A stretch of DNA of 64,000 nucleotides from the NCBI RefSeq assembly GCF_002205795.1, contig NZ_NIUY01000002.1, forward strand, positions 868,001-932,000, in the 5' to 3' direction. This DNA comes from Chryseobacterium sp. VAUSW3. Lineage in GTDB: Bacteria > Bacteroidota > Bacteroidia > Flavobacteriales > Weeksellaceae. Of the stretch, positions 48,927 to 64,000 are shown in pieces; position 1 is the stretch's first letter; each line of letters opens with the position of its first letter. The position numbers and the translations under genes were made by a program. The notes under the pieces are model-generated. The model was not told the DNA's origin. It made no database searches and saw only the letters and a list, made by a program, of their open reading frames with translations.

Positions 48927-50435
48927 ATGAGTTCAAAAGTTTACGACAGAGTACAACTGAAAGAAAAGTACGACAACTACATTAACGGACAATGGACTCC
49001 ACCGGCAAGTGGAAAATATTTTGATGTAATCACCCCATTGGATGGAACAGTGATGGGCCAAGCGGCACATTCCAACGAACAAGATCTGGAAATGGCAGTA
49101 AATGCTGCGGAAGCGGCTTTTGTAACTTGGGGAAAAACTTCCGTTACCGAAAGAAGCAACATCCTCATTAAAATTGCGGATCGCATGGAAGCCAACCTGG
49201 AAAAAATTGCAGTGGTAGAAACCATGGACAATGGTAAACCAGTTCGCGAAACCCTGAATGCCGACATTCCTTTGGCGATTGACCATTTCAGATATTTCGC
49301 CGGGGTAATTCGTGCGGAAGAAGGTTCTTTAATGGAATTAGACAATGATACGGTTTCCTTAATTGTGAATGAACCTTTAGGAGTGATTGCTCAAATTATT
49401 CCTTGGAATTTCCCGATTCTGATGGCTGTTTGGAAACTTGCTCCAGCTTTGGCAGCAGGAAACTGCGTGGTACTGAAACCGGCTGAAAGTACTCCAATCT
49501 CAATTTTAGTATTGATGGAAATCATCGGCGATTTGCTTCCACCGGGAGTTGTAAATATTGTAAATGGTTTTGGTGGAGAATTAGGTCATGCCCTGGTTAC
49601 CAACAAAAAAGTGTCAAAAGCAGCATTCACGGGTTCTACCGCGACAGGAAGACTGGTGATGCAATATGCTACTGAAAACATCATTCCGGTAACTTTGGAA
49701 TTGGGAGGTAAATCACCAAACGTTTTCTTCGAATCTGTGATGGATGAAGACGATGCTTTCTTCGACAAAGCTTTGGAAGGAGCCGCATTATTTGCCTTAA
49801 ACCAAGGTGAAATCTGTACTTGTCCATCCCGATTATTGGTACAGGAAAGCATTGCTGACAAATTCATCGAAAGAGTCGTAGAACGTGTTAAAGCCATTAA
49901 AGCAGGAAATCCACTCGATACCTCTACAATGATTGGTGCGCAAGCTTCGAAAATCCAGTACGACAAAATCCTTAGCTACATCAACCTAGGTAAAGAAGAA
50001 GGTTGCAAAGTGCTAACAGGTGGCGACGCTAATGTATTGGAAGGCGAATTGAAAAACGGCTACTACATCCAGCCAACCCTACTGAAAGGCCACAATAAAA
50101 TGAGAGTTTTCCAGGAAGAAATCTTCGGACCCGTACTTGCGGTAACCACTTTCAAGGATGAAGCAGATGCAATCGCGATCGCAAACGATACCATTTATGG
50201 TCTAGGAGCCGGAGTTTGGACCAGAGATGCTCACCAATTGTACCAAGTACCAAGAGCAATCCAGTCAGGAAGAGTTTGGGTGAATCAATACCATTCTTAT
50301 CCTGCAGGTGCACCTTTCGGAGGTTACAAACTGTCGGGAATCGGTAGAGAAAATCACAAGATGATGCTCGATCATTACCGCCAAACCAAGAATATGCTCA
50401 TTTCTTACAGCAAAGAAAAATTAGGATTCTTCTAA
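48927..50435 (+). CDS. Aldehyde dehydrogenase (acetaldehyde/short-chain type)
   Basis: The 502-residue NAD(P)-dependent aldehyde dehydrogenase has [20 protein letters not shown], the cofactor motif FTGSTATG, the catalytic Glu in LELGGKSPN, and the catalytic Cys in NQGEICTC (about residue 296). It closes with the [17 protein letters not shown] signature. The family oxidises aldehydes to acids. The DUF779 protein encoded next door is the common partner of this ALDH subgroup (AldB/ExaC type), which supports acetaldehyde or alcohol metabolism. A hairpin at 50445 lies between the two genes. Confidence 0.93.
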
Positions 50436-50444
50436 ATGATAATA

Positions 50445-50476
50445 GGCGGATTTTTATTGTAAATCCGTCTTTTTTT
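50445..50476 (+). terminator. Hairpin with T run between aldehyde dehydrogenase and DUF779
   Basis: GGCGGATTT (50445-50453) pairs with AAATCCGTC (50461-50469) with one G-T pair, followed by seven T. It probably terminates or attenuates the dehydrogenase message. Confidence 0.7.
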
Positions 50477-50501
50477 CTGATTTCAATTAAAAAGTTTCAA
50501 C

Positions 50502-50921
50502 ATGGAAAAAATCCCACGTCTTTCAGTAACTCCAAAAGCCTTGGAACTCGTAAAACAACTCTCTGAAGAGTTTGGCGAACTGATGTTTTACCAGGCCGGT
50601 GGCTGCTGCGAAGGTACCCAGCCACAGTGTTTCCGTGAAGGGCATTTTTATCCGCGGACCAAAGACGTAAGTATTGGAACGGTGATGGGCTTTCATTTCT
50701 GGATCGATCATGATCTTTTTGAATACTGGAAGTACAGCCATTTCGAACTTGATGTGACGGACGGTTTCGGTGCTGGTGGATTTTCTCTTGAAACCGCTAA
50801 AAGCAAAACGTTCAAAGTGAATTACAGACTTTTCAGTAAAGACGAACTGGAGTACCTGGAGGACACCATTCTTTATCATCAGTATATGATTCAGAAAAAA
50901 GAGAATTCGCAGAAAATTTAA
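50502..50921 (+). CDS. DUF779 protein, partner of aldehyde dehydrogenase
   Basis: The 139-residue protein matches DUF779: VTPKALELVKQLSEEFGELMFYQAGGCCEG (seen here as GELMFYQAGGCCEG), then GFHFWIDHDLFEYWKYSHF and DVTDGFGAGGFSLE. DUF779 genes are typically found beside aldehyde dehydrogenases; the biochemical role is unknown. The conserved CCEG and His residues could bind a metal. Confidence 0.9.
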   Translation: MEKIPRLSVTPKALELVKQLSEEFGELMFYQAGGCCEGTQPQCFREGHFYPRTKDVSIGTVMGFHFWIDHDLFEYWKYSHFELDVTDGFGAGGFSLETAKSKTFKVNYRLFSKDELEYLEDTILYHQYMIQKKENSQKI

Positions 50922-51036
50922 ATCAGAATAAAGATATACCCGGCAAATATTATTTTTAAAAGCTGTTAATTTTTTTAATTGACAGGTTTATTATTCATAC
51001 TTTTTACTAACTTCATCATCAACTAAATATACAATT

Positions 51037-51990
51037 ATGGAAACAAAAACTACTCTTTTCAAAAAACAGGATTACCTTCCCAAAGCCCTTTCTTTGCGGC
51101 TTCTGAACAAACGTATATCTTCCGTTGTCATAGGATTTATGATGATGGCCGGATATACGACCACCAAGGCACAAACAGCTTTGGTAATACCCGATTCCAA
51201 TGAGGGCAGTGCATTCATCGGTCCTTATGGAAATGCCGCTAGACAGTTACAGATGATTATCGATGATACGCTCCTTACTTCCCTAGTCGGAAAAAACCTT
51301 ACCTCCATTTCCTTCAGGCTGCCGGCAAGTACAGCTACCAGTTGGCCACCGAACAATTTGACGATGAATGCATTTGATATTTATCTGAGTGAGAGTGTTG
51401 AACCGGCGGAGCGACAGCTTAATTTTGCCGCTAATGTGGTAGGTACACAAACTCAGGTACGCTCCGGAAGTTTACAGATTCCGGCAGGTGCGCTAACTGT
51501 AGGTTCCAATCCAAATAATTTCAGTTTTAAGATTAATTTTACAAGTGCATGGCAGTATAACGGTGGCAACCTCCTGATAGAAGTTCGACACAGCGGAACC
51601 GGAATTTCTTCAAGAAGTGTTCAGGCAGCTTCTACAAGTTCGGCGGGTTACGGGACTTTATATTCCGCACTTTGGCAATCTACAGGCGACGTTTTACAGG
51701 GCAACTTTACACAGGTAGAAATTACTGCAGATGGTCCGTTAGGTACAAATTCAGTGAAAATTGGAGCGGCTGTAAATATTTACCCAAATCCTGTAAAAGA
51801 CATGTTGTTTATAAAATCTGAACGGGAATTTACTTCTTATTCTGTTTATAATATGGCCGGACAAAAGGTTTCTTCAGATAAAATGACCGGAAAGAGCATC
51901 AATCTTTCGCGCCTGCCGGTTGGTTCTTATGTTCTGAAACTTACGGACAAGGAAGGGAATACAGAATCTACAAAATTTATGAAAAATTAA
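51037..51990 (+). CDS. Secreted protein with T9SS type A sorting domain
   Basis: The 317-residue protein has an unusually long N-terminal region before the hydrophobic signal (about residues 28-46, SSVVIGFMMMAGYTTTKAQ). A beta-rich domain follows (about 47-240), with FDIYLSESVEPAERQLNFA, and then a type A sorting domain (about 245-317) containing INIYPNPVKDMLFI-like sequence (VNIYPNPVKDMLFIKSE) and SVYNMAGQKVSSDKM. It is exported by type IX secretion. The body domain is not recognised. Confidence 0.8.
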   Translation: METKTTLFKKQDYLPKALSLRLLNKRISSVVIGFMMMAGYTTTKAQTALVIPDSNEGSAFIGPYGNAARQLQMIIDDTLLTSLVGKNLTSISFRLPASTATSWPPNNLTMNAFDIYLSESVEPAERQLNFAANVVGTQTQVRSGSLQIPAGALTVGSNPNNFSFKINFTSAWQYNGGNLLIEVRHSGTGISSRSVQAASTSSAGYGTLYSALWQSTGDVLQGNFTQVEITADGPLGTNSVKIGAAVNIYPNPVKDMLFIKSEREFTSYSVYNMAGQKVSSDKMTGKSINLSRLPVGSYVLKLTDKEGNTESTKFMKN

Positions 51991-52041
51991 AATCTGCTCA
52001 CCCCGAATTCGGAGGCACAACGTGATATGTAATCATTTTAA

Positions 52042-52075
52042 TAAAAGACATTTCTCTCGAAGTGTCTTTTATTTT
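52042..52075 (+). terminator. Rho-independent terminator
   Basis: AAAAGACA (52043-52050) pairs with TGTCTTTT (52063-52070), extended by further pairs, followed by ATTTT. Confidence 0.7.
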
Positions 52076-52188
52076 ACACTTTCAGAAATTTAGTGTTCCT
52101 TAAAAGTCCGTTTGTGGCGAAAAGCTAACGAAAATTAAAGACTAAAACAAATTATATGTTAACATACCCTCACAATAATGATGGGTCT

Positions 52189-52959
52189 TTATCGGATCAT
52201 GACTTTAGCTTCTTCCCAAAGTTTATCCATTTCCTCCAGCGAGAGGTCTTCCAGTTTTAAATTTTTATCCGATGCCAGCTGCTCCATTTTCTGGAAGCGG
52301 GAAATAAACTTGATATTGGTTCTTTCCAGCGCTGAGTCTGGATTGATGCCTGAAATTCTGGCATAATTGATCAAGGAAAAGAACACATCTCCCAGCTCCT
52401 GCTCTTTTTTGTCGGGATCGGCTTCCGCGTGAAATTCTGTAAGTTCTTCATCCACTTTCTTCCAGGCATCTTCAGCACTGGCAAATTCAAACCCGATTCC
52501 TTTTACTTTGTCCTGAATTCTGTAGGCTTTCACAATACTTGGTGTTCCTTTAGTCACGCCGGAAAGTACTGATTTGTTGCCTTCCTTTAGTTTGAGCTTT
52601 TCCCAATTCTGCTTTACTTCCTCTTCATCCTGAACCTCCACATCACCATAAATATGCGGATGACGGAAGATGAGTTTTTCATTCAGCGCGTTGATGACAT
52701 CGGCAATATCGAAACTTCCCTTTTCTGATCCAATTTTTGCGTAAAATACCAGATGCAGCAGTACATCACCCAGTTCCTTTTTAATTTCGGGCAGGTCTTC
52801 TTCCAGCAAAGCATCGGAAAGTTCGTACACTTCTTCCAGGGTAAGATGCCTCAGGGTTTGAAGTGTCTGTTTCCGGTCCCAGGGGCATTTTTCCCGAAGG
52901 TCGTCCATGATGTCGAGGAGCTTAGAAAAGGCTTCAAGTTTCTGTTGTTTGGTATTCAT
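52189..52959 (-). CDS. mazG: Nucleoside triphosphate pyrophosphohydrolase MazG
   Basis: The 256-residue protein has two MazG domains. The N-terminal one holds LREKCPWDRKQTLQTLRHLTLEEVYEL (seen as CPWDRKQT, LEEVYELSDAL) and ELGDVLLHLVFYAKI, with the EExxE...ExxD metal residues. The C-terminal one (about 150-256) holds ELTEFHAEADPDKKEQELGDVFFSL. MazG hydrolyses NTPs to NMP and pyrophosphate and helps remove aberrant nucleotides. It is the last gene of the minus-strand group ruvX-def-DUF5606-mazG. Confidence 0.94.
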   Translation of the reverse strand: MNTKQQKLEAFSKLLDIMDDLREKCPWDRKQTLQTLRHLTLEEVYELSDALLEEDLPEIKKELGDVLLHLVFYAKIGSEKGSFDIADVINALNEKLIFRHPHIYGDVEVQDEEEVKQNWEKLKLKEGNKSVLSGVTKGTPSIVKAYRIQDKVKGIGFEFASAEDAWKKVDEELTEFHAEADPDKKEQELGDVFFSLINYARISGINPDSALERTNIKFISRFQKMEQLASDKNLKLEDLSLEEMDKLWEEAKVMIR

Positions 52960-52974
52960 GTGATGGGTGATATT

Positions 52975-53015
52975 TGATGCTGGATGCTAGATGATGGATG
53001 ATGGATGGTGGATGT
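52975..53015. repeat. GGATGAT-type short tandem repeat
   Basis: A run of near-heptameric units based on GGATGAT/GGATGCT lies just upstream of mazG. It is degenerate and probably arose by slippage. Confidence 0.5.
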
Positions 53016-53048
53016 TTGGTACCGAATTACAAATTTACTTCATTTATG

Positions 53049-53079
53049 CAAAAAACCTTGCCGGTAAAGACAAGGTTTT
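53049..53079 (-). terminator. Terminator of the DUF5606 gene
   Basis: AAAACCTTG (53052-53060) pairs with CAAGGTTTT (53071-53079). Read on the minus strand it is followed by a T run. Confidence 0.65.
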
Positions 53080-53097
53080 CATTTCATTTCCTATGGT

Positions 53098-53664
53098 TTA
53101 TCCCATTTTTCTGTGGGTACTTTTGGGTGTACCTTTCGCAGAAGAAGTAGAAGCTTTTACTTTAGGAGCAGCAGTTTTCTCAGTTTTGGGTGCTGTTTTT
53201 TTCGCTGTTTTTTTCTCAGTAACTTCCGCAGGCTGCTCTTCAGTTTTTTCCTCAGCAGGAACTTCTGCTTTTACGAAGCTTTCAGGGGTGATGTATCCTG
53301 CTTTGCTCAGGATATTATACCACTGTGCCAGTTTTTTGATATCTGAAACATATACCCTTTCGGTATCGTAATCTGGCAGCGACTGGGCCATGAAATCTCT
53401 CAGTTCCGCATCCGAAGACTTGTGAGAAATGGCTTCTTTATAATCGTAGTTCTTGGCAACATTTTCGAACACTTCAAATAAAGGAACTTCTTTATCAAAG
53501 GTGAACATCGCGATATTATCGAGCAAACTTACCTGAGAAGTATTGCCGATGCTCACTTTCTTCTTAGAAACTACATCTTCGATAATGAAACCGTTTTTCA
53601 ACTGCGAAATCAGTTTGTAAAGCCCCGGCTTACCGGAAATTGAGATTATTTTTTCTAACTGCAT
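53098..53664 (-). CDS. DUF5606 protein
   Basis: The 188-residue protein matches DUF5606, found in Flavobacteriia near def and mazG. The N-terminal strand-rich domain has ISISGKPGLYKLISQLKNGF and a short helical middle part (residues 55-130). The C-terminal 50 residues are low-complexity, Lys/Ala/Thr-rich (KKTAKKTAPKTEK), likely disordered and possibly nucleic-acid or ribosome binding. Function is unknown. Confidence 0.88.
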   Translation of the reverse strand: MQLEKIISISGKPGLYKLISQLKNGFIIEDVVSKKKVSIGNTSQVSLLDNIAMFTFDKEVPLFEVFENVAKNYDYKEAISHKSSDAELRDFMAQSLPDYDTERVYVSDIKKLAQWYNILSKAGYITPESFVKAEVPAEEKTEEQPAEVTEKKTAKKTAPKTEKTAAPKVKASTSSAKGTPKSTHRKMG

Positions 53665-53698
53665 TTTTCTTATTTTTTATATTTTTAGTTCGTTCTTT

Positions 53699-54271
53699 TT
53701 ATTTCGGAAACCGCATTTTGTAGTTTACCGCCACATCGCCATGAGAAATTTTTACCAGCTTCCCTTTTACCAGTTTTTTCTTCAGTGAGCTGAGATGGTC
53801 TGTAAAAAGTATGCCTTCAATATGATCGTATTCATGCTGAATAACACGCGCTCTCATGTCGGAGAACGTGTCGGTATGTTTAACGAAATTTTCGTCATAA
53901 TATTCGATCACGATGGTTTCTTTGCGTTTAACATCTTCGCGGATATCGGGGATTGAAAGACAGCCTTCGTTGAATTTCCATTCTTCACCGGATTCTTCAA
54001 GAATCCTGGCATTGATGAATACTTTTTTAAAATCTTTGAGTTCATCAGCGATATCGGCATAATCTTCGTCCTCTGCAAGTGGCGAAAGATCTGCGATAAA
54101 AAGGCGGATATCGAGACCGATCTGCGGAGCTGCCAACCCGATACCATGCGCAGATTCCATGGTTTCGAACATATTACTGATCAGTTCGTTAAGCCCCGGA
54201 TAATCTTTGTCGATCTCGTGACAGTGTTTCCTTAAAACTGCATCGCCAAATGCACGTATAGGTAATATCAT
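53699..54271 (-). CDS. def: Peptide deformylase
   Basis: The 190-residue protein has all three deformylase motifs: GIGLAAPQIG (43-52), EGCLS (102-106, with the zinc Cys) and QHEYDHIEG (145-153, HExxH). It removes the N-formyl group from new proteins. Its start overlaps the ruvX stop by four bases (ATGA type), so the two genes are translationally coupled. Confidence 0.96.
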   Translation of the reverse strand: MILPIRAFGDAVLRKHCHEIDKDYPGLNELISNMFETMESAHGIGLAAPQIGLDIRLFIADLSPLAEDEDYADIADELKDFKKVFINARILEESGEEWKFNEGCLSIPDIREDVKRKETIVIEYYDENFVKHTDTFSDMRARVIQHEYDHIEGILFTDHLSSLKKKLVKGKLVKISHGDVAVNYKMRFPK

Positions 54272-54684
54272 TTTTGTTTCTGTTCTAAAAAATTCTGTAA
54301 AATAAGGGTGGCACTTACTTTATCAACCAACCCCTTTTCTTCTCTTTTCTTTTTGCCCTTGCCGCTTTGCGAGATATAGAAGGAGGCCATTTTCGAGGTA
54401 AAACGCTCATCAAAACGGTACACTTCAATCTCCGGAAACTGGAGTTTAAATTTCTCAATAAAGCCTGAAATTTCCTGCTCTATTTCCGAAAGGTTTCCCT
54501 TCAAATCTGTGGGAAGCCCTACTACAATTGCCTCTACCCTGTTTTGGGCAAAATAACCGGTAAGAAACGGAAAAAGTTCTACGGTTTCTACGGTCTGCAA
54601 ACCGCTGGCAATAATCTGCAGCTCATCGGTCACCGCAATGCCACAGCGTTTTTTGCCATAATCTACCGCCATAATTTTCCCCAT
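54268..54684 (-). CDS. ruvX: RuvX/YqgF Holliday-junction resolvase-like
   Basis: The protein (138 aa from the ATG at 54684) has the RNase H-like YqgF fold: IMAVDYGKKRCGIAVTD with the catalytic Asp, VVGLPTDLKG, and VYRFDERFTSKMA. A role in pre-16S rRNA processing is established for YqgF in E. coli; a nuclease role in junction resolution was inferred earlier. I chose 54684 because a -7 box lies just upstream (54691-54698) and the shorter N-terminus matches the family; the longer frame is upstream of the promoter. Confidence 0.92.
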   Translation of the reverse strand: MGKIMAVDYGKKRCGIAVTDELQIIASGLQTVETVELFPFLTGYFAQNRVEAIVVGLPTDLKGNLSEIEQEISGFIEKFKLQFPEIEVYRFDERFTSKMASFYISQSGKGKKKREEKGLVDKVSATLILQNFLEQKQK

Positions 54685-54690
54685 AGTCTG

Positions 54691-54698
54691 CAAATTTA
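54691..54698 (-). promoter_or_regulatory. -7 promoter box of ruvX
   Basis: On the minus strand TAAATTTG matches TAnnTTTG and ends six bases before the ATG (54684), predicting a very short leader. Confidence 0.5.
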
Positions 54699-54820
54699 CA
54701 AATATTTGTCGTTGCTTACAAAATTTAAAAAAAGGTGACATTTATCAATTTGAAATCCGGCACCTTTAATCTTAATCAGCCTAACTTTATTTATTATTTT
54801 AATCTAAAAACACTTTGCTG

Positions 54821-55147
54821 ATGAAAGCTTTAGTATTTAATGGACCCCAGACAAAAATCGCTGGTCGACTGCTGAAACCCGGCGGTCACCTCGCCAACGT
54901 GGGTGTACACGGCAAACCTGTAGAACTGCATATTGAGGAACTCTGGATCAGAAACGTCACTATTACCATGGGCCTGGTCTGCACCAGCACTACCAGCATG
55001 CTCCTGAAAAATGTTGAAAGCAAGAAACTGCAGCCCGAGAAACTGGTTTCGCACCGCTTCGACTTCAATGATATGATCAATGCGTATGAAGTATTCGGTA
55101 ATGCCGCTAAAGAGAAGGCCCTGAAAGTAATTATTAACTTCAACTGA
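54821..55147 (+). pseudogene. Zinc alcohol dehydrogenase remnant with large internal deletion
   Basis: The 108-residue frame opens with MKALVFNGPQTK, the usual N-terminus of zinc-dependent alcohol dehydrogenases. It jumps after about 14 residues to the family C-terminus (RLLKPGGHLANVGVHGK, SKKLQPEKLVSHRFDFND, FGNAAKEKALKVII). About 230 residues, including the catalytic zinc site and most of the cofactor domain, are missing, but the frame is intact. An in-frame deletion fused the two ends. A terminator follows. A non-functional relic is the natural reading. Confidence 0.75.
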
Positions 55148-55169
55148 CCGTAATTTTTTAATAATCAGG

Positions 55170-55198
55170 AAGAGAAGCTCACAACTTCTCTTTTTTTT
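55170..55198 (+). terminator. Rho-independent terminator
   Basis: AAGAGAAG (55170-55177) pairs with CTTCTCTT (55185-55192) and is followed by T residues. Confidence 0.7.
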
Positions 55199-55232
55199 AA
55201 CTAATTTTATTTCCCCAAAAATACAGCGCAAT

Positions 55233-55709
55233 ATGAAAACACTAATTCTTGTTCGCCATGCCAAAAGCGACTGGCCGGAAAATACGGATGATTTTGACAG
55301 ACCCCTTGCCGAAAGCGGTTTACAGGACGCCGTAAAGATGTCGAACTTTTTAAGGAATCAAAACATCGCCATTGATAAGATGGTCTCCAGCCCCGCACTG
55401 CGCGCCCTGAATACGTGTGAAATCTTCCATAAAACTTATCCGGTGGCGATGGAAACCAACCCCAAACTTTATAACGCCAACGAAAACAATTTCGAATCTG
55501 TGATTTATGAACTGACGGACGAGGTGAAGTCGGTGGCAATGTTCTCTCACAACAACGGCATTTCTAATTTTGCCAATATGATGAGCGGGGATATTTTTGC
55601 GTTCCCTACCTGCGGGGTGGCAGGTTTTCAGGTTGAGTGTGAGTCGTGGGCAGATTTTGAGGGCGCAAGAAAAAAGTTGCTCTTTTTTTATGAACCGAAG
55701 AAGATTTGA
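55233..55709 (+). CDS. SixA-like histidine phosphatase
   Basis: The 158-residue protein is a short histidine phosphatase. The RHG motif is LVRHAKSDW (6-14), with the second-site Arg in SSPALRALNT and the second His in MFSHNNGISNF. It resembles SixA, which removes phosphate from phospho-histidine in signalling proteins, but the target is not known here. Start and length fit the family. Confidence 0.88.
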   Translation: MKTLILVRHAKSDWPENTDDFDRPLAESGLQDAVKMSNFLRNQNIAIDKMVSSPALRALNTCEIFHKTYPVAMETNPKLYNANENNFESVIYELTDEVKSVAMFSHNNGISNFANMMSGDIFAFPTCGVAGFQVECESWADFEGARKKLLFFYEPKKI

Positions 55710-56062
55710 GCTTTTAGAGCCGTATTTTAAGGCCACTGATTTTAAAGAATTTCGTTTACCGCAAAAGTTAGCAAAGACTTTTGCACAATTCAAGTGCTGC
55801 TAATGAACGATAAGTGGGTTATATATCTTTTTTCTCAATTACTAAATAAGAACGCAAAGGTGTTTCACTTATCAAAGACAATAATGTAGGATAATTTAGG
55901 CTTGAGTTTTATCATCGGGAAGAACTTTTCACTGCACCTTTTTTATCTTTGCAACATCTTACCAGATCAAAACTTTTGTAACTTTTGTGGTAAATGCTAA
56001 CTAAAAAGTCACAGAGAATTTCGATTTCCTGTGACTTTTTTATTGATTATTGCTGTTTCTAA
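55710..56062. other. 353-base gap: possible promoter and shared terminator
   Basis: The gap holds no convincing gene. A -7 box TATCTTTG (55944-55951) points to the right and is followed after about 50 bases by a strong hairpin, AAAAAGTCACAG (56003-56014) with CTGTGACTTTTT (56029-56040), which also terminates the convergent serine-hydrolase gene. A small RNA of about 85 nt between the two signals is possible. Confidence 0.4.
56003..56042 (-). terminator. Bidirectional terminator after the serine hydrolase
   Basis: Twelve-base arms at 56003-56014 and 56029-56040 with A and T runs on either side; it serves the minus-strand gene ending at 56063 and any plus-strand transcript. Confidence 0.75.
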
Positions 56063-57613
56063 TTACTTGGTGCGCTGCAAATCGAGATCTTCGAAATCGA
56101 AACTGAAATCCGTAATATCTGAGATGGGTTTCATCTTTGCAGAGGTGGCTTTTCCGGCTTCATCGTAGGTGAAGATCACGAAGGCATCAGCATCGTAACT
56201 TCTGTCATCCCATTTTGCAATGAAGGTATTATTGGTGTACGGCAACAGTTCGCCTTTCAGTCGCGGGGAGTTTTTAGCCTGGATACCGTAGATTTTTCCC
56301 TGCTGCGTGATGACTACATCGCCGAACCAGGCATCAGTGTAAGTTCCGACAAACTGTTCAGGTTTTGGCTGAAGATTTTTTTCTTTACTGAAGGCCGCAG
56401 ACTTCGCGAACACCTCTTTTTTCCCTTTTTCGAAATCAGCATTCATTTTTAACATTCGGTCGCCGTAGGTTTTCAGCCAGTTGCGGTCTTCAATGCCGAG
56501 GTAGGCATCTCTAATGGTGTTGGTTACCGTGCTGAAAGCTGCCCCACTCTGCTGGTTGGTGAGTACAATGATGCCGAGCTTCATGTCGGGAATCAGGGTG
56601 AACTGGGTAACGGTACCAATCAGTCCGCCCGTATGATACACCTGCTTATGCCCTTTAACGTCGGTCAGAAACCAGCCGAGACCGTAACCACCGAAATTGG
56701 AATCATAGCTATTCTTCAAGGCTACGGGTGTTGCGATCTGCACATTCCATAACTGCTGGATCTGTTTATCGGAGACGAGTTTTTTACCGTCTTTGGTGGT
56801 GAATCCGTTCATAAGGAAATCTGCCCATATCCCCATATCGGTAATGTTGCTGATAATACCTCCCGCGGCATCCGCAGTCTCATTCCAGTCGTGTGGAACC
56901 TGAATCACTTTACCGTCAATAGGGGCGTGTGCATCGATGATATTTTTTACGCCAGCAGCTTTTGCACGGTTATAATTGCCAAAACTCGATTTCATGCCTA
57001 CCGGTTGCAGGATCCGCTGCTCGATAAATTCAGCCCAGGAAAGTCCGGAAACCCTTTTGATTACCTCACCCGCTACAATGAACATAATGTTGTTATAATC
57101 CATGGTGTTGCGGAAAGAATGCTCGGGCTTCAGATAGCGCACGTTGTGGATGATGTCGTTCACCGTAAGATTACCGCCTTCAGGAAAGAACATCAGGTCT
57201 CCCTGCCCCAAACCCAAACCGGCTCTGTGGGTAATTAAATCTTTAACGGTAACCTCCTGGGTCACATAAGGATCGTACATGCGGAATTCAGGAATGAACT
57301 TCGTGACTTTATCATCGAAATTCAGCTTACCTTCATCAGCAAGGATGGCCAGGGCAGTTCCGGTAAATCCTTTAGAATTTGAAGCGATTCCCACGAGGGT
57401 GTTTTCGTCCATTTTTTGGTTCGCGGTAAGGGAATTCACGCCAAAACCTTTGGCATAGACCATTTTGCCGTCTTTAATAATGCCGACGGACATTCCGGGA
57501 ACATCAAATGTTTTGAGGGTATTCTGAATCAGTTCATCGAGTTTTTTTTCTTCGATCTGGCCGAAAGCCATTAAAGAAACAAGGATGAATAACAGGGAAA
57601 AGTTACGTTTCAT
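56063..57613 (-). CDS. Secreted serine hydrolase, beta-lactamase/esterase family
   Basis: The 516-residue protein has a signal peptide (ending LMAFGQ) and a class C beta-lactamase-like domain (PF00144-like, about 22-370). The nucleophile motif SNSK is at 78-81 (SxxK), followed by a Tyr-containing MDYNN and HTGG, which stands for the KTG-type motif. A C-terminal DUF3471-like domain follows (about 400-516). Such proteins are usually esterases or D-aminopeptidases rather than drug-hydrolysing beta-lactamases. It is a single gene. Confidence 0.88.
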   Translation of the reverse strand: MKRNFSLLFILVSLMAFGQIEEKKLDELIQNTLKTFDVPGMSVGIIKDGKMVYAKGFGVNSLTANQKMDENTLVGIASNSKGFTGTALAILADEGKLNFDDKVTKFIPEFRMYDPYVTQEVTVKDLITHRAGLGLGQGDLMFFPEGGNLTVNDIIHNVRYLKPEHSFRNTMDYNNIMFIVAGEVIKRVSGLSWAEFIEQRILQPVGMKSSFGNYNRAKAAGVKNIIDAHAPIDGKVIQVPHDWNETADAAGGIISNITDMGIWADFLMNGFTTKDGKKLVSDKQIQQLWNVQIATPVALKNSYDSNFGGYGLGWFLTDVKGHKQVYHTGGLIGTVTQFTLIPDMKLGIIVLTNQQSGAAFSTVTNTIRDAYLGIEDRNWLKTYGDRMLKMNADFEKGKKEVFAKSAAFSKEKNLQPKPEQFVGTYTDAWFGDVVITQQGKIYGIQAKNSPRLKGELLPYTNNTFIAKWDDRSYDADAFVIFTYDEAGKATSAKMKPISDITDFSFDFEDLDLQRTK

Positions 57614-57795
57614 TATTGGAATTTTTAATTGTCACGAAGATATAAATTTTTTAACAGGCGCGCTGTACACCGGCTGCAGGTGGTGAATAAATCAGGAAGC
57701 CTGCATTACAGTTTTGTGGTTCTCACCCGTACTGTTGGGGGTTGGTTCAGGACTTCTTCGGAAAAAAGGGGTTATTCCCGAAGGAGATACGAATA

Positions 57796-57842
57796 AGACC
57801 TGAAGCATTCAGCACGAAGACCTTAAGGAGACCTTAAGCATC
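57796..57842. repeat. Three AGACCTTAAG-type units
   Basis: AGACCTGAAGCAT (57796-57808), AGACCTTAAGG (57818-57828) and AGACCTTAAGCAT (57829-57841) are near-identical direct repeats, and CCTTAAGG in the middle is a palindrome. Confidence 0.55.
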
Positions 57843-58041
57843 CTGCAGGGAGGTACGGCGCAAGTATGCGGCAACTACGGCTCAACCTCGGGAAAATGCT
57901 TATGGAAGGGGTTTAAGAAGAATTTAATTGGTGAAAAACAGGGGTTTCAGGATAAAACAAGCGTTCATAATCACCTGTTTACCAAAACTTTGTAAATATA
58001 GGGAAAAATCATAAAACATCGGTTATATGTGCTATTTTTTA

Positions 58042-58049
58042 TATATTTG
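58042..58049 (+). promoter_or_regulatory. -7 promoter box of the unknown basic-protein gene
   Basis: TATATTTG matches TAnnTTTG, 27 bases before the ATG at 58077. Confidence 0.45.
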
Positions 58050-58076
58050 AGATGGGTACATTTCTAAAGCAACAGC

Positions 58077-58724
58077 ATGGGCAAAGTGAATTCGATATTT
58101 AAAGTGAGCGGAAAACTTGGCGATTATGTTTTCTACGAGCTGAACGGGAAGCAGGTTGTGCGCAAGGCCGCCGGTAAAAAACGGGGTCCGAAATCGGAGG
58201 CTCAGAAAAAGAACGAGGTTCAGAACACCGAATTTGCAAAGGCCTCATCGGCCGGAAAATTTCTGCGTGCCGGCTTGGCAGAGGAATGCAGGCGCATGAA
58301 TGACCGCTACCTGTACCGGAAGGTAAACAAACTGATGCTGGAGCTGAAGGCTGCGGATGGTGCCGAAAAGGGCCAGCGCACCCCTGCAGGAGGATTGGGT
58401 ACTCCCGAAGGCCGCGCAATACTGCGGGATTTCCGCTTTCATAAAAAGTACGGGCATTTTCCCAAACTGAACAGTGCGGTGAGGCAGAGAGGAAAGGCCG
58501 TGCTTCACCTCTCCCCTTCCCGCCAGCCGGTTGACGGCATTACGGAGCTTCAGATTAATCTTGACAACGGAGATTTCCGAAGACAGGTGCACGCCGCGCC
58601 GGAAATAAGCGCACAGAACCGCGCGGAAGTGCCACTCGGTTTCCGGCGCAGAAAGGGTTACCATGATTTGTTGTTTATTTGGGGCGAAGGGTTTCTGCAG
58701 GGGGTGGTTGGAGCTGAGGAGTAA
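58077..58724 (+). CDS. Unknown basic protein with a G-K-L-G-D-Y-V-F-Y N-terminus
   Basis: The 215-residue protein is basic overall and rich in Arg, Lys, Gly and Ala, with higher G+C than its neighbours. The N-terminus reads FKVSGKLGDYVFYELNGKQ and is followed by a Lys/Arg-rich stretch (VVRKAAGKKRGPKSEAQKK) and FAKASSAGKFLRAGLAE. From memory, this pattern resembles a Bacteroidota family of unknown function with a similar G-x-I/L-x-D-x-x-F-Y start. There is no signal peptide or membrane segment. The gene is followed by the repeat array and lies near a tyrosine recombinase, so it may be part of an acquired element. Confidence 0.7.
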   Translation: MGKVNSIFKVSGKLGDYVFYELNGKQVVRKAAGKKRGPKSEAQKKNEVQNTEFAKASSAGKFLRAGLAEECRRMNDRYLYRKVNKLMLELKAADGAEKGQRTPAGGLGTPEGRAILRDFRFHKKYGHFPKLNSAVRQRGKAVLHLSPSRQPVDGITELQINLDNGDFRRQVHAAPEISAQNRAEVPLGFRRRKGYHDLLFIWGEGFLQGVVGAEE

Positions 58725-58774
58725 GTATTAATTTAATTTTTGCTTCATTTTTTATGTCTTTCCGTGGAATCCGC

Positions 58775-58797
58775 GATCCGCGTTGGCGGATTGTTTT
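58775..58797 (+). terminator. Hairpin terminator after the unknown basic-protein gene
   Basis: ATCCGC (58776-58781) pairs with GCGGAT (58786-58791) with a 4-base loop, followed by TGTTTT. It belongs to repeat module 1. Confidence 0.5.
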
Positions 58798-58831
58798 GAC
58801 ACAAAAAAATTATAAGGCAGATAATGTTGCA

Positions 58832-58861
58832 CTTACTTTTTGTCTTGACACAAAAAGTAAG
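58832..58861. repeat. 12-bp perfect hairpin in the repeat array
   Basis: CTTACTTTTTGT (58832-58843) and ACAAAAAGTAAG (58850-58861) pair perfectly around CTTGAC. A second interlocking pair, GTCTTGAC and GTCAAGAC, lies at 58842-58849 and 58869-58876. Confidence 0.65.
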
Positions 58862-58925
58862 CAAAAAAGTCAAGACTGGAAACTACGGCTAAAATTTTAA
58901 ATCCTTTCCTAAAATTCCCAAAATT

Positions 58926-58980
58926 GACTCCCTCTGGTCGTCGAACCGCAAGCGGTTTGACTCCCTGCGGTCGTCGAACC
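58926..58980. repeat. 22-bp direct repeat in the array
   Basis: A 22-base unit at 58926-58947 is repeated at 58959-58980 with two mismatches (both begin GACTCCCT and end GTCGTCGAACC), separated by a short AACCGC/GCGGTT hairpin. Confidence 0.65.
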
Positions 58981-59974
58981 ACTACGTTAGGTTTCGGGCG
59001 ATACAAATAGTTTTCTTCAATCATAGTTTTAGCGCGCTCAAACAGTGGGAATTTTTTTACGGAAATGCTTTAAAATTTTTTAACGCCTTCGTTCCCTAGG
59101 TCGTTTGGGTTGATAAAGAAACAATGGGAATTATATCCGGATTGGTTGAAGGGTGGGATGAGAAATAATTGTAATTTGCCTCATTTGCAGTTTTTTCATT
59201 TGAATCGGCGATCCGCTAGAAGCGGATTTTTTTAACGCGAAAATCTCCTGGGTCGTTATTAAACTGATTAAATCCGATTATCAGGGTTATCGGGAAAAAT
59301 TAGCGAGAGATTACTGTACTTACTTTTTGCTTCATTATTTATTGTTATACTTACTTTTTGCTTCATTTTTTTATGTTTTTTTCAGTGGAATCAGCGATCC
59401 GCCTTTGGCGGATTGTTTTGACACAAAAAGTAAGCAAAAAGGTCTAGACTGGATCTTTTTGCCTCATCCTTGTTTATATTTTTAATGGAATCGGCGAAAC
59501 TCCTTCGTCGGTTTGCTAAAAAATCTAAATTTCTTTTAAGAAAATCTCCAAACTTGCGCGGAAAGAAAAAGTTGTTGTTTAAGTTAAATGATTGCCGCGC
59601 TTCAAACAGTGGAAGTTTTTATGCATTGATAATAGAAAATAACAGATAGAAGAAATTAAGATTTGCCTCATTAATTTTTTATATTAGGAGTCGGCGATCC
59701 GCTAGAAGCGGATTTTTTTTTAACGCAAAAATCTCCTAGGTCGTTCACCAGTATTCAAAAGCGTTGCACTTATAGGAGACAAAAGCAGGGTTTAGGAAAT
59801 CAGCGGAATTTGTGGAATCAGCGAGGGTTTAAAGGCAGAATTTCTTTACGCAAAATCACCGAGGCTTTTCTTGCTACTGGTGAGCATCTACACCGCAGCA
59901 TGTTTTCTGCTGAAACCTCAGATAATTGCAGGGAATGAGTTGTGGTTAAGTGTTGTGCAATTCCTGGTGCAGCA

Positions 59975-61105
59975 TCAGGCCGAATCACCGGGTTTGGGTG
60001 ACATGAGTCTGTCGAGGGGCGATTCTACTTTTCCTAACTGTGTGTCGGTTACACTGGTGTAAATGAGGGTGGTTTTAATGTTATTGTGCCCGAGGAGTTT
60101 CTGGATCAGGGAAATGTCGGTGCCGGCTTCGAGGAGGTGGGTGGCGTAGCTGTGTCGCAGTCCGTGGATGCCTACTTTTTTGGTGATGCCGGCTTTGATC
60201 ATGGCATTGCGGAAGACCTGCTGCACACTTCGGGTGGTGATGTGCCCGCCATACTGTCCTTCGAAGAGGTATTCGGTGGGTCTGTACTCGCGGTAATAGG
60301 TTCGCATTTCTGTAAGGACGGACTGGGGAAGATTGACGTAGCGGTCTTTTTTGCCTTTGGCGCGCTGAATGAGGACGGTGTTGGCGACCGAATCGATATC
60401 ACTGATGCGGAGGTTTACGATTTCGCTGACGCGAAGCCCCATGCCATAACAGAGATGGAGAATGAGCTGGTGCTTGGGATTGTCTACAGCGGCGAAGAGT
60501 TTCTTTATTTCTTTGGCATTGAGTGCTTTGGGCAAGAGTATCGGTTTTTTGGGTCTGGGGATATCGAAGAGGATTTTCTCCTGATAAAGGACTTTTTCGA
60601 AATAGAATTTCACGGCGTTCATTCGGCTGTGAATCTGATTTTCTGAGAGGGCGAGTTCTTTGGTACAGTAGAGGAAATAAGATTTCAGTTTTTCGCGCGT
60701 GAGGTTCTGGACCGGATAATCTTTAATAAGGTATAGGAGTTGTGCGAATTCTACGCTATAGGTTCGGATTGTATTGGGAGAGAAACCCTTGAGGATGAGC
60801 ATCTCCTGATATTTCCTGAAAGCCTGCTGATTGACGAGAGAAATTTTAGCAATGACCTCCTTTCCCACAATATTGGGCTGTATGCCGAAGAGGTTTCGGT
60901 AAAATAGGTTATCGGTGACGTACCATTTTTTCTGTGAGGCGGACCATTTTGGGGTGGTATATTCTTTTAGCAGTGCTATGTGGTGCTGTTGATATGGAAA
61001 GCTTATCCATATGATTTCTTTGCCACGGTGGGTACCGGTGGAAAAAGAAAAAACGGCAGGATCGAAAATGATGTTCGCATTTTGCATAACTTCAGCACTT
61101 CGCAT
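59975..61105 (-). CDS. Tyrosine recombinase with an IntI-like C-terminal tail
   Basis: The protein (376 aa from the ATG at 61105) is a tyrosine recombinase. An N-terminal extension (about 1-85) precedes a SAM-like core-binding domain (about 90-175, LILKGFSPNTIRTYSVEF). The catalytic domain has Arg225 (GMGLRVSEI), Lys250 (AKGKKDRY), His314 and Arg317 (HGLRHSYATHLLEAG), His340 (LLGHNNIKTT) and the nucleophile Tyr349. After the Tyr comes KVESPLDRL (about 360-368), resembling the V-x-SPLD tail of integron integrases; the integron-specific insertion between the middle motifs is absent. The start is set by the -7 box at 61117-61124. Confidence 0.9.
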   Translation of the reverse strand: MRSAEVMQNANIIFDPAVFSFSTGTHRGKEIIWISFPYQQHHIALLKEYTTPKWSASQKKWYVTDNLFYRNLFGIQPNIVGKEVIAKISLVNQQAFRKYQEMLILKGFSPNTIRTYSVEFAQLLYLIKDYPVQNLTREKLKSYFLYCTKELALSENQIHSRMNAVKFYFEKVLYQEKILFDIPRPKKPILLPKALNAKEIKKLFAAVDNPKHQLILHLCYGMGLRVSEIVNLRISDIDSVANTVLIQRAKGKKDRYVNLPQSVLTEMRTYYREYRPTEYLFEGQYGGHITTRSVQQVFRNAMIKAGITKKVGIHGLRHSYATHLLEAGTDISLIQKLLGHNNIKTTLIYTSVTDTQLGKVESPLDRLMSPKPGDSA

Positions 61106-61116
61106 TTTGTATATCT

Positions 61117-61147
61117 CAAAGTTATAAAAATATAAAAGACTATACAA
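61117..61147 (-). promoter_or_regulatory. Promoter of the tyrosine recombinase
   Basis: On the minus strand TAACTTTG (61117-61124) matches the -7 box and TTG (61145-61147) lies 20 bases upstream. The box ends 11 bases before the ATG at 61105, excluding longer starts up to 61255. Confidence 0.6.
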
Positions 61148-61237
61148 CAAGGGTTTAAAAATTTGGTAGTCTGGAATAATCTTCGCATATTTGAGAGTTA
61201 TCTGTAAGCGTATTGCAAATCGCCTAAAAAAATATAT

Positions 61238-61714
61238 ATGAATAAAAATTTGCATTTTTCAGCAAATACTAAAAACGTTCTTAGCAGATTTTATCTAACG
61301 TATCTTTCTCTAGGAATTTTTTTTTTATTTTATGAAATTATCCACTTAAATACTGATTCTAAATATGTTATTAGTTATTCTATTTTCATCGTTTTATTTT
61401 TAAAATTTTTATGGGATTTTCTTACAGATAAATTTGTAAAAACACTACATTTTAACGACAATGAAAATAAATTAAATGTTGTAGAAAGTAATTATTTGAA
61501 CAAAGAAAAATTATATACAGTAAACTATTCTGAAATTAATTATGAATTTGAGAACTCAAATGGTTTTTGGAAAATAATTATAGGAAAAAAAATTTTGACA
61601 ATACTGAAAAATAATTTAGAATTAATGAAAATTGGAAAATCATCAGGATTCAATTATCAACAGATTTCTGAAATTGAATCAAAACTTAATGAAATAAAAA
61701 GCGCCTACAGATAA
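61238..61714 (+). CDS. AT-rich gene of unknown function, cassette-like
   Basis: The 158-residue protein has two predicted membrane segments (about 17-33 and 43-60) and a soluble C-terminal part (60-158) of mixed strands and helices with many Asn and Lys. The coding sequence is strongly AT-rich, unlike the genes around it. It is divergent from the tyrosine recombinase, with 132 bases between starts, and its stop is followed within a few bases by an attC-like inverted repeat. I do not recognise a family. A PH-like membrane-associated fold is conceivable but not shown. Confidence 0.65.
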   Translation: MNKNLHFSANTKNVLSRFYLTYLSLGIFFLFYEIIHLNTDSKYVISYSIFIVLFLKFLWDFLTDKFVKTLHFNDNENKLNVVESNYLNKEKLYTVNYSEINYEFENSNGFWKIIIGKKILTILKNNLELMKIGKSSGFNYQQISEIESKLNEIKSAYR

Positions 61715-61901
61715 CAGTGTATTGGCAAAAGACGGGGGTGCATATTGTCTTTGAAAATTCAGTTAACAATATCCGCAAAAATGCTTTTCATATTTCTTTT
61801 TTCAGTAATTTAGAAATCTGAAAAAGCATTTTGCTCAGGGCAGGTTTTCCTTTGAAACTGTCTGCAAAGTAGCCGCCCTTCGCCAATACTTTTTCCGTTG
61901 T
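61712..61901 (+). repeat. attC-like imperfect inverted repeat
   Basis: Right after the stop, GTATTGGCAAAAGACGG (61719-61735) matches the reverse complement of CCGCCCTTCGCCAATAC (61873-61889) in 14 of 17 positions, the three differences being A/G. Inside, AAAATGCTTTT (61778-61788) and AAAAGCATTTT (61822-61832) pair perfectly. Left of the outer arm is GATAAC (61710-61715) and right of it CCGTTGTGC (61895-61903), which sit where the R'' (ends AAC) and R' (starts GTT) boxes of attC lie, though neither fits the full consensus. Confidence 0.5.
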
Positions 61902-61997
61902 GCGTCACCCTAAAACAACATCCTGCACAAAAAAGTACGTTTTCAAGACAAAAAGCTTGACATTAAAACATCTAAAATATTTGCTAACCATTACCTT

Positions 61998-63005
61998 TTA
62001 GCTGTTATTAATTTCCACCATTACTTCAGCAAACAACTCAACAGATTTAACACGGTTTTCAAACCCGAAAACATTGGTAGAAACCATCAGTTCATCAACT
62101 TGGGTATCTTCCAAAAAGCTTTGTATTCCAGCTTTGACGGTTGCTTTACTGCCTACAAAAGAATATTTAAGCGTTTGCTGTACTGTTGGATGTTGAAGCA
62201 TTTGTCGCATTCCAAAATCCATCTCTACAGGCGGTTGCAAAGGTTTGGATGCACCCGTAAATATTCCGTAAAACATCTTTATTAAAGAAGTAAACAGTAT
62301 TTGTGCTTCGGCATCGGTTTCTGCAATAATCACGTTGACACCTGCAATGGTGTAAGGTTGGTTCAAAACTTCAGAGGACTGAAACTCTTGTTTATAAATA
62401 GCCAATGCAGTTTGCAAATGCGTAGGTGCAAAATGGCTACCGAAGGCATAAGGGAATCCTTTGGAAGCCGCCAAGTGGGCACTATCCGTGCTTGACCCTA
62501 AAATATAAATTGGTACTTCCATTCCTTCGGCAATGGCTACTCGCACATTACTCGATTTGTTTTGAGCATCAAAATAGTGTTGAATTTTACTGATTTCTTC
62601 TGGAAATGAACGTGCTGACTGCATAAAATCTGAACGTATAGCCAATGCAGTTGGGGTATCTGTTCCCGTGGCTCTGCCTAAACCCAAATCGATACGGTTG
62701 GGGTACAATTGTGCTAACGTTCCAAACTGTTCGGCAACAATCAAAGGCGAATGGTTAGGAAGCATAACGCCACCAGAACCCACTCTAATTGTTTCCGTAT
62801 TGTTGGCAACATAACCAACCAAAACAGATGTAGCATTACTCGCAACCGTGTCTGTATTGTGATGCTCTGCAAACCAAAATCTCGTGTAATGATTTTTCTC
62901 AGCCGCTTTGGCTAATTTCAGAGAGTTGTTCAACGTTTCTTTAAAACTCGTTCCATCCGAAATCGCTGCAATTTCTAATATCGAATACTTGATTTGATTT
63001 TTCAT
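61998..63005 (-). CDS. LLM-class flavin-dependent oxidoreductase
   Basis: The 335-residue protein is a luciferase-like monooxygenase family member (MsnO8-type subgroup). It has SILEIAAISDGTSFKETL, HYTRFWFAEHHN (the family AEHH motif), IRVGSGGVMLPNHSPL, and RIDLGLGRATGTD. It probably uses reduced flavin to oxidise a small substrate, unknown here. It lies 17 bases downstream of the alcohol dehydrogenase on the same strand, so the two are an operon. Confidence 0.9.
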   Translation of the reverse strand: MKNQIKYSILEIAAISDGTSFKETLNNSLKLAKAAEKNHYTRFWFAEHHNTDTVASNATSVLVGYVANNTETIRVGSGGVMLPNHSPLIVAEQFGTLAQLYPNRIDLGLGRATGTDTPTALAIRSDFMQSARSFPEEISKIQHYFDAQNKSSNVRVAIAEGMEVPIYILGSSTDSAHLAASKGFPYAFGSHFAPTHLQTALAIYKQEFQSSEVLNQPYTIAGVNVIIAETDAEAQILFTSLIKMFYGIFTGASKPLQPPVEMDFGMRQMLQHPTVQQTLKYSFVGSKATVKAGIQSFLEDTQVDELMVSTNVFGFENRVKSVELFAEVMVEINNS

Positions 63006-63022
63006 TTTTATAAACTGGTATT

Positions 63023-64000
63023 TTACATCTCAATGACTACTTTGCCCGTCACATTGCCACTTTGTAAGCGGTCGTATGCTTTTTGGTAGTCATCAAAGGC
63101 AAAAACACTATCAATAACAGGTTTCATTTTTACGCTTGCCATTGCGGCTAACATCGCTTCAAAATCACTGCGAGAACCCATCGTGGTAGCACCTAGTTGT
63201 ATGCCACGTGTCATAATTTCCAAAGGCGAAACGCCTCCTCCCATTCCGCTGGCAAAGCCTACCAACGCCACATTACCACCTGCTTTGGTACTGGCAACCG
63301 ATTTATTAATTGTTTTTTCGCCTGCCACTTCCACCACTTTATCTACACCTAAACCATTGGTTAATTTTAATATTTCTTTGTCCCAATCAGGATTTTCACC
63401 GTAAGCGACCACCTTTTCTGCGCCTAATTCTCGTAAAAGTTGGGCTTTGTCATCATCATCACGACTGGCAATCGCCAATACTCTTGCACCGCTTAATTTG
63501 GCTAATTGCAAAGCAAACACCGACACACCGCCTGCACCTTGTACCAATACGGTTTGCCCAGCCGTTAATGTGCCGTGTTGATGAATGGCATTCCAAGCGG
63601 TTACAGCACCACAAGCCAACGTTGCGGCTTCTGTGTAACTTAAATAATCAGGCAATTGTACCAGCGACATTTCGTGTAACACGATGTATTCCGCAAGCCA
63701 ACCATCCATATTAAACCCGATACTGGCAACATAGTATTCTGGTTTCAAAACTTTGCCATCCACCCAATTTGCCCAGCAGTTTGCCGACACTCGTGAGCCA
63801 ACACTAACACGAGAAACTTCTTCTCCCACTGCCACCACTTCGCCAGCACCATCAGACAATGGCACAACCGAATTGACTACCCCAGGATAGTTGCCACTTA
63901 AAGCTGCGTGGTCACGAAAGTTTAAAGATGCCGCTTTGACTTTAATCAAAACTTCATTTTTGCCAAGCGTAGGAATAGCTTGTTTGTTTTGGATTAATTG
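63023..64000 (-). CDS. MDR-family alcohol dehydrogenase, 5' end outside the window
   Basis: The open frame continues to the window edge, giving 325 residues; the first few (perhaps 10-20) are missing. It has the N-terminal LGKNEVLIKVKAASLNFRDH and GDGAGEVV-like sequence (SDGAGEVVAVGEEV), the cofactor motif VQGAGGVSVFALQLAK, and the C-terminal RLQSGNVTGKVVIEM. Zinc ligands of classical alcohol dehydrogenases are not evident near ANCWANW, so it may be a zinc-free quinone-reductase-like member. An internal TTG (63949) is not the start because the reading frame runs through it. It is upstream of the flavin oxidoreductase in one operon. Confidence 0.85.
   Translation of the reverse strand, partial: QLIQNKQAIPTLGKNEVLIKVKAASLNFRDHAALSGNYPGVVNSVVPLSDGAGEVVAVGEEVSRVSVGSRVSANCWANWVDGKVLKPEYYVASIGFNMDGWLAEYIVLHEMSLVQLPDYLSYTEAATLACGAVTAWNAIHQHGTLTAGQTVLVQGAGGVSVFALQLAKLSGARVLAIASRDDDDKAQLLRELGAEKVVAYGENPDWDKEILKLTNGLGVDKVVEVAGEKTINKSVASTKAGGNVALVGFASGMGGGVSPLEIMTRGIQLGATTMGSRSDFEAMLAAMASVKMKPVIDSVFAFDDYQKAYDRLQSGNVTGKVVIEM

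Follow-up and report, generated by a model that had tools for sequence, protein, structure and literature searches.

We analysed 64,000 nucleotides (nt) of Chryseobacterium sp. VAUSW3 (contig NZ_NIUY01000002.1, positions 868,001 to 932,000; "the window"), which carry near their right end a minus-strand tyrosine recombinase gene (59975..61105). On the basis of Pfam, a tree and residue spacing, we propose that this gene encodes a cassette integrase without the I2 insertion of IntI. From comparative sequence data, we consider it very likely that an integron-type cassette array, still working or working until recently, has its head in the window. The comparisons show a crossover point, an attI motif, the exchange of cassettes as units, and an association of the recombinase lineage with arrays. 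By most of the comparative tests (attI, cassettes, paired ends, and polarity), the system is integron-like, although it does not fall in the IntI integron family as defined by the integrase. An earlier reading of the same letters (the original prediction) had described a minus-strand recombinase divergent from an AT-rich gene whose stop is followed by an inverted repeat. All of these elements proved real when judged by open reading frames (ORFs), Pfam, folding, and comparison of the repeat arms.

The inverted repeat is the attC of the first cassette (61705..61907, plus strand; 187 nt from the core AAC at 61713 to the GTT at 61897-61899), and its last letters belong to the second cassette. When we searched the strain's own genome (2.63 Mb in 10 contigs, 99.96% complete) with this element, 47 DNA matches reached E <= 1. 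The strong matches were clustered, and the weakest may be chance. An iterated profile, collected from 15 stretches of the genome, aligned 30 full-length copies. Once a short size class was recognised, the count in these 15 stretches came to 47 paired attC-like sites in arrays, 16 of them 105-126 nt long and 31 of them 181-190 nt long (about 123 and 186 nt). In all but a handful, AAC is located towards the left end and GTT towards the right. As the repeat behind cassette 1 is one of these 47 sites, the alternative offered with the original prediction, a lone attC-like element, is excluded. We had also considered the repeat as the decayed tail of a minus-strand gene, and this was dropped in view of the 30 copies with matching arms. 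One solitary attC-like site lies outside the arrays (C3:568734-568918, locus L046).

Integron cassettes begin at the GTT of the preceding site, and this start is expected to be complementary to the letters that precede AAC (R'') in the attC of the same cassette. We scored the eight letters beside the core in all 45 delimited cassettes, including those mis-segmented because of unpaired arms. Complementarity between the ends of the same cassette reached 272/360, compared to 160.7 ± 9.3 after shuffling (2000 shuffles, maximum 194). Cassette 1 (61198..61897, plus strand, 700 bp) starts with GTTATCTGTAA and has GTTATCTGTAG as the complement of its own R'' (7/8). Its two ends form a 14-nt inverted pair (61197-61210 with 61702-61715) that would be unremarkable taken alone. 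Cassette 2 (plus strand, 61898..64000 and continuing beyond the window to ~65250) starts with GTTGTGCGTCA against an R'' complement of GTTGTGCGTTC (6/8).

Cassette content was examined in cassette 1 and in the 37 of 45 cassettes with an end match of at least 5 (8/45 were dropped). The median length was 629 bp without attC. An ORF of at least 50 amino acids was found in 33 cassettes and was lacking in 5, and 32 of these 33 ORFs point in the direction of the array. The sole cassette whose longest ORF runs against it is cassette 2, which at 3.35 kb carries minus-strand metabolic genes for an LLM-type oxidoreductase and a quinone-reductase-like protein. The gene of cassette 1 (61238..61714, plus strand), defined by the ORF list and a homologue search, encodes a 158-residue AT-rich protein with no Pfam family above cut-off and three homologues in 5.8 billion sequences, one of them named Chryseobacterium koreense. 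We scanned 32 of the 33 products (the other spans two stretches) and found 21 Pfam families, each in one member, including a chromate transporter, an adenylyltransferase, and a glutaminase. An ORF-less cassette of ~330 bp recurs in four array places (L038:8352-8683, C7:163-494, C8, and the tail of the window's array).

The original prediction had placed an attI-like site in the gap between the two divergent genes (61106-61237), and this is where we found it. The attI region (61088..61199, plus strand) is conserved up to GTTA(T) in three copies, with a different cassette after each. Besides the window, these are a second array head in the same genome and a locus of Chryseobacterium sp. HSC-36S06. 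In the latter strain (G143, locus L109), the recombinase is 98% identical, attI is identical, and the DNA matches the window up to GTTA before another cassette follows, so that the divergence falls at the predicted GTT. The original prediction had suggested looking for alternative cassettes here in other strains, and the different first cassette in this strain shows that the locus varies. The second array head of the window's genome (C3, ~423 kb) has a recombinase remnant and the same attI, matches the window to GTTAT, and then continues into a different cassette. A third, partial attI-like stretch within that second array (L038:15502-15546) ends in GTTATCTGTAA, fitting the R'' of the next attC. 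The attI core of the window is TCGCATATTTGAGAGTT (61183..61199, plus strand), with the crossover between G61197 and T61198.

We then located cassette starts by working back from the first detected attC at 34 loci. At 24 of them, the cassette start had a match of at least 5 and lay 92-229 nt from the recombinase (limit 300 nt); at the remaining 10, the best start was farther away or poorly matched. The 24 starts share the motif T[TG]CG[TC]ATATTTGNGNG/TT, with the slash marking the crossover. Allowing up to two substitutions, this motif was present within 320 nt upstream of the recombinase in 54 of 78 clade-A loci (the clade of the window recombinase) across Bacteroidota, two more loci being too short to test. 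In control segments from the downstream side, it occurred in 1/1804 on the plus strand and 3/1804 on the minus strand (4/3608 together). The motif is similar to the -7 box (consensus TAnnTTTG-like) found in promoters of Bacteroidota. In the window, the possible -7 element is CATATTTG (61186..61193, plus strand, from the attI profile), and TTTG at 61162..61165 (plus strand) is a possible -33 element by its TTG spacing. A TTG lies 18-20 nt ahead of the -7-like box in 30 of the 54 attI loci, a count with no control set behind it. Because of this resemblance and spacing, attI may house a cassette promoter.

The recombinase itself is 376 residues long counted from 61105 and 370 from the ATG at 61087. 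The open frame extends to 61255, and its homologues start at about the position of that ATG. It scores 136.8 bits with the Pfam family Phage_integrase and 32.5 bits with SAM_4. The KVESPLDRL tail that the original prediction likened to the SPLD tail of IntI is present, and the letters SPLD are invariant across a 25-row alignment. The absence of the IntI-specific insertion was likewise borne out. The spacing from GKKDR to HxLRH is 68 residues in the window protein, 68, 69, and 68 in clades A, B, and D, and 72 and 76 in the genome's two Xer-like proteins, compared to 110 in all 21 of the 21 canonical IntI proteins examined. The recombinase therefore lacks I2. Its score with the IntI model TIGR02249 was 182.6 bits against a cut-off of 265. 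It also stayed below the cut-offs of three Xer equivalog models (score/cut-off of 218.1/220 for NF040815, 174.8/335.2 for XerC, and 171/329.6 for XerD).

A tree of the kind proposed with the original prediction (71 rows) put the window protein outside IntI, in clade A (support 100/100) as sister to clades B and D (95/88), with IntI as a separate group (100/99). The tree included 27 of 80 clade-A rows, and long branches were flagged, which leaves the deep order unsure. We found no IntI above the TIGR02249 cut-off in the window's own genome. Across the class, 1 of 345 genomes had one, as did 105 of 395 genomes of the wider phylum, and among the 108 matching genomes listed, one belongs to the class. 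Relatives of the window recombinase occur in 17/345 class genomes at E <= 1e-80 and in 90/148 family genomes at E <= 1e-30, its own genome counted in both.

Clade-A recombinases carry an extra N-terminal domain that IntI does not have. Proteins of clades C and D align to the query from about residue 86 or further in and still have array matches at their loci, so the N-terminal domain is probably not essential. We do not claim a HARP-like (SMARCAL1) origin for this domain, as Pfam gave only weak DUF5710 matches below cut-off (best 2.7e-4). An AlphaFold model was shallow (25 sequences; predicted template modelling score [pTM] 0.43; VIA mainly residues 90-358), and no structural claim is built on it. 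In relation to XerA, XerC, and XerD, the window recombinase differs in lying at the attI of a cassette array and in having both an SPLD tail and the N-terminal domain, and it is distinct from the genome's two other Xer-like recombinases (L002 and L003). ORFs beside both integron heads (58077-58724 and L038:3815-4453) have first residues that look alike by eye. Downstream of the recombinase, a dispersed palindromic repeat, GGCGATCCGCTAGAAGCGGATT, occurs at 59176-59260 and 59662-59747, and the surrounding stretch was matched on contigs C1 and C6.

IntI integrons have a divergent integrase gene, an attI site, cassettes in one orientation, and attC sites with R'' and R' ends. The window system shares with them the divergent integrase, an adjacent attI with a G/TT crossover and a possible promoter-like sequence, mostly one-gene cassettes in one orientation, and imperfectly palindromic attC sites with R''/R' ends. 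The difference from IntI integrons such as class 1 and the Vibrio superintegron is in the integrase, which there carries I2 and here lacks it and falls outside the IntI clade. The attC arms also differ, being mostly bulge-free here and marked by recurrent A/G asymmetries.

We next considered how such sites might be recognised. In cassette 1, the left arm GTATTGGCAAAAGACGG (61719..61735, plus strand) pairs without gaps with the right arm CCGCCCTTCGCCAATAC (61873..61889, plus strand) except at A/G positions. A 201-nt stretch around this attC folds better than its shuffles on both strands (z of -2.5 and -3.5). Over all 47 sites, left and right arms match within the site with a score of 641, compared to 407 ± 15 when shuffled and 438 ± 16 when shuffled within a size class. 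Gapless pairing of the arms was equal or better in 40 of the 47 sites. In canonical integrons, it is extrahelical bases of attC that the I2 helix docks, according to the available text of PMC7790495. Since 40 of 47 arm pairs gain nothing from a gap, most sites lack the bulged bases that I2 would dock.

The arms instead differ from each other in a recurrent way. An A on the left stands against a G in the reversed right arm, giving A.C mismatches on the top strand and G.T pairs on the bottom strand. We counted 88 bottom-wobble, 20 top-wobble, and 15 other differences in the 47 sites. Four other site sets gave bottom-/top-wobble counts of 40/9, 9/5, 36/14, and 10/3, though these were collected with this genome's profile, which may favour look-alikes. 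When six sites were folded, the bottom strand was the more stable in 6/6. The unpaired spacer is uneven, most commonly with 3 nt on the left and 7 nt on the right (13/47). With I2 absent and bulges mostly absent, we infer that strand choice has shifted to the wobble asymmetry. On this model, attC would be used as a folded single strand, and the bottom strand would be chosen through the G.T/A.C asymmetry and the uneven spacer in place of the extrahelical bases docked by the I2 helix. Rfam gave no attC match (best E 0.86, to unrelated families), and no similar attC was found in phage records.

One alternative is that the recombinase treats attC and attI as ordinary double-strand sites in the manner of Xer, with the attC palindrome as a double binding site. 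The lack of I2 speaks for this, as Xer proteins, which have no I2, do not read single strands through it (PMC7790495, in the available text). However, a duplex site needs neither arms that match within the site (641 versus 407 ± 15) nor a strand asymmetry of 88 to 20, and the two length classes of about 123 and 186 nt likewise count against it. We regard duplex recognition as unlikely and favour the folded bottom strand.

Beyond this genome, we examined 80 named homologous loci among the matches listed, all but one labelled as Bacteroidota or a taxon within it, using the attC profile built from the window's genome alone at E <= 0.01. Upstream of the recombinase, the profile matched 68 times on the array strand and never on the opposite one; downstream, it matched 12 times on the minus strand and never on the plus strand. 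Upstream matches came from 26 loci and downstream matches from 6. At the latter, a second architecture is seen, in which the array runs away from the 3' side of the recombinase gene. The same profile had no match in 20 fixed-position 17-kb control regions from 11 family genomes (340 kb). The idea that homologues of the recombinase are never near such repeats, named with the original prediction as grounds for giving it up, thus fails, with 68 upstream matches on the expected strand and none on the other. End pairing at the 80 loci, scored with a generic attC finder, was 355/472, compared to 171.4 ± 10.5 (59 pairs). In a further set of 20 loci from the family and the window's own genome (the window included, genomes partly shared with the 80), 13 gave upstream array-strand matches, 5 end within ~0.6 kb, and L103 and L107 had none upstream. 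At L100, two weak opposite-strand matches overlapped strong ones. A metagenome-assembled genome labelled Phycisphaerales (L167) has a system with attC matches and the attI motif, reflecting transfer or a mis-binned contig.

Several results weigh against our interpretation. The attI motif was missing from 24 of the 78 clade-A loci, and gapped alignment of the arms was better in 7 of the 47 sites. No profile match was found at 48 of the 80 loci; 26 of these have <1.5 kb upstream and 7 stop within ~0.35 kb on the downstream side, but the other 15 are flanked by sequence left and right and lack a match all the same. The generic finder was less strand-specific than the profile (69 upstream plus, 33 upstream minus, 9 downstream plus, and 15 downstream minus). 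In three probable Riemerella genomes (G052, G066, and G077), the recombinase has no attI motif and lies ~470, 200, and 23 kb from the arrays. Among 20 loci of more distant clades, 14 had array matches (6/9 in clade B, all downstream minus; 5/5 in clade D, upstream plus; 3/6 in the rest; L226 was matched on both sides). Since these other recombinases also adjoin arrays, the link is not exclusive to clade A. The proposal in the original prediction of a sister recombinase using attC-like sites in Bacteroidota holds in its grouping outside IntI and in the arrays alongside, and the use of the sites is a reading of these patterns.

An attC of this genome also finds 12 plasmid records, 3 of them from Riemerella, and we inspected the regions in 7 of the 12. 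Resistance genes within such plasmid cassettes were tet(X), catB, ere(D), lnu(I), and aph(3')-IVb. A tet(X) cassette with its own 125-nt attC and ends matching 7/8 was present on pRA0511, a Bacteroides plasmid, an Empedobacter plasmid, and a second Riemerella plasmid; the cassettes upstream of it, in the same order, held a hypothetical gene, ere(D), catB, and ere(D). At the threshold of the tet(X) search, the finder's background is 4 matches per 340 kb on both strands. These plasmid cassettes, together with the arrays, the two attC sizes, the mostly bulge-free and strand-asymmetric arms, and the second architecture with the array downstream, go beyond the original prediction.

At a slightly lower threshold, the plasmid pRCAD0416RA-1 showed 11 plus-strand attC-like sites and 6 overlapping minus-strand matches. 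Its end pairing over 9 of 10 intervals (one of >6 kb was omitted) was 49/72, compared to 28.4 ± 4.7 (0/2000 shuffles as high). No recombinase of the window group was found on it at E <= 1e-3. This implies that an enzyme acts in trans at least sometimes. In the aph(3') cassette of this plasmid, the gene is preceded by 28 nt and followed by 139 nt (167 together). According to the available text of PMC13148043, Riemerella anatipestifer transformants gained aph(3')-IVb with 27 + 140 bp (167) and without homology, and RCAD0416, the strain to which this plasmid belongs, is named as a plasmid carrier of the gene. That text names no integrase, describes the mechanism as still to be elucidated, and remarks on an attC-like fold of the 140 bp. 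The published 27 + 140-bp piece fits our predicted 28 + 139 cassette. The recipient site was flanked by relE and a helix-turn-helix (HTH) gene (PMC13148043, in the same text), and a 98% relative of this relE/HTH cassette occurs twice in G052 amid many attC-like matches. G052 has only one clade-A recombinase, ~470 kb away from that array. It lacks the attI motif and has two solitary attC-like matches no more than 6.5 kb away, which points to a different enzyme or to action in trans in this genome.

We also compared the "xerD" gene that precedes tet(X3) on the Acinetobacter plasmid p80-1-2-tetX3, whose role is left open in the available text of PMC7473080. Its product is 43% identical to residues 132-367 of the window recombinase, and the tet(X3) cassette has the same start, GTTATGTGCCA, as tet(X2). 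The differences are that this protein is shorter and that a cut-off attC left arm follows tet(X3). On a Klebsiella plasmid, a 41.8% relative of the recombinase (L279) lies ~110 bp before blaVEB-3. The generic finder detected no complete attC at either the blaVEB-3 or the tet(X3) locus.

That the Riemerella array plasmid lacks a recombinase of the window group, so that an enzyme must act in trans at least sometimes, also suits a second alternative, in which a canonical IntI, encoded elsewhere or carried by passing plasmids, moves classical cassettes and the divergent recombinase is a mere neighbour. Against this, IntI is absent above cut-off from the strain's own genome and nearly so from its class (1/345). 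The attI motif is tied to the I2-less recombinase at 54/78 loci, and with 40/47 arm pairs gaining nothing from a gap, there are mostly no bulges for I2 to dock. We therefore consider movement by a canonical IntI very improbable.

A third alternative has homologous recombination between attC repeats as the main route of cassette exchange, and in its favour, the copies within the genome are ~70-84% alike over most of their length. However, the attI junctions fall at the GTT core with no shared sequence beyond it, and R''/R' ends pair by cassette and not by neighbour, so we give this scenario hardly any weight. We assign next to no likelihood to a relic array beside which the integrase of a phage or conjugative element happened to land. 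Tyrosine recombinases are common cargo, and one array end on contig C6 does have an adjacent integrase whose neighbours are mobile-element-like. Across Bacteroidota, however, both the attI motif and the polarity of the arrays recur, and relatives from viral contigs are only 38-40% identical over part of the protein. The C6 integrase is 24% identical. At the locus itself, the question of a prophage or conjugative element was addressed only through the ORFs listed for 50000-64000 and through family searches with five proteins.

We return to recombination of cassettes by the window enzyme. In the model that we favour, the I2-less recombinase would insert circular one-gene cassettes at attI beside its own gene, between G61197 and T61198, where they would probably come under a promoter built into attI, and it would excise or shuffle cassettes through attC recombination. 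Catalysis of these reactions by this recombinase is inferred.

The available text of IntegronFinder 2.0 (PMC9024848) names one complete integron within Bacteroidetes, in Salinibacter, and Bacteroidota are among the phyla listed with integrons in the parts of PMC8618304 and PMC9668308 available. Integrons are surveyed by looking for IntI genes and for clusters of attC sites (PMC9668308, in the same parts), so arrays such as these have probably been missed or filed as integrase-less clusters. We found no I2-less integron described in the open-licence literature searched, a scope outside which preprints and most subscription journals fall, nor in the available text of PMC9024848, PMC8618304, PMC7790495, PMC8352920, PMC9668308, PMC7473080, PMC11194056, and PMC13148043.

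On balance, we lean toward the view that Bacteroidota have an integron kind of their own, with an I2-less integrase, mostly bulge-free hairpin attC sites, and strand choice by asymmetry and spacer. This kind, and not class 1 integrons, would have assembled and first mobilised the tet(X), ere(D), catB, lnu, and aph(3')-IVb cassettes, and the "xerD" beside tet(X3) would be what is left of such an integrase. The available text of PMC7790495 presents the I2 helix as the acquisition that enabled integron integrases to use folded single strands, and a second lineage that apparently uses folded strands without I2 tests that view. The system would also offer a testable answer to two published questions, as far as the available text of each paper poses them. 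One is whether tet(X) is moved by "XerD" (PMC7473080), and the other is how the homology-independent integration of resistance genes in Riemerella comes about (PMC13148043).

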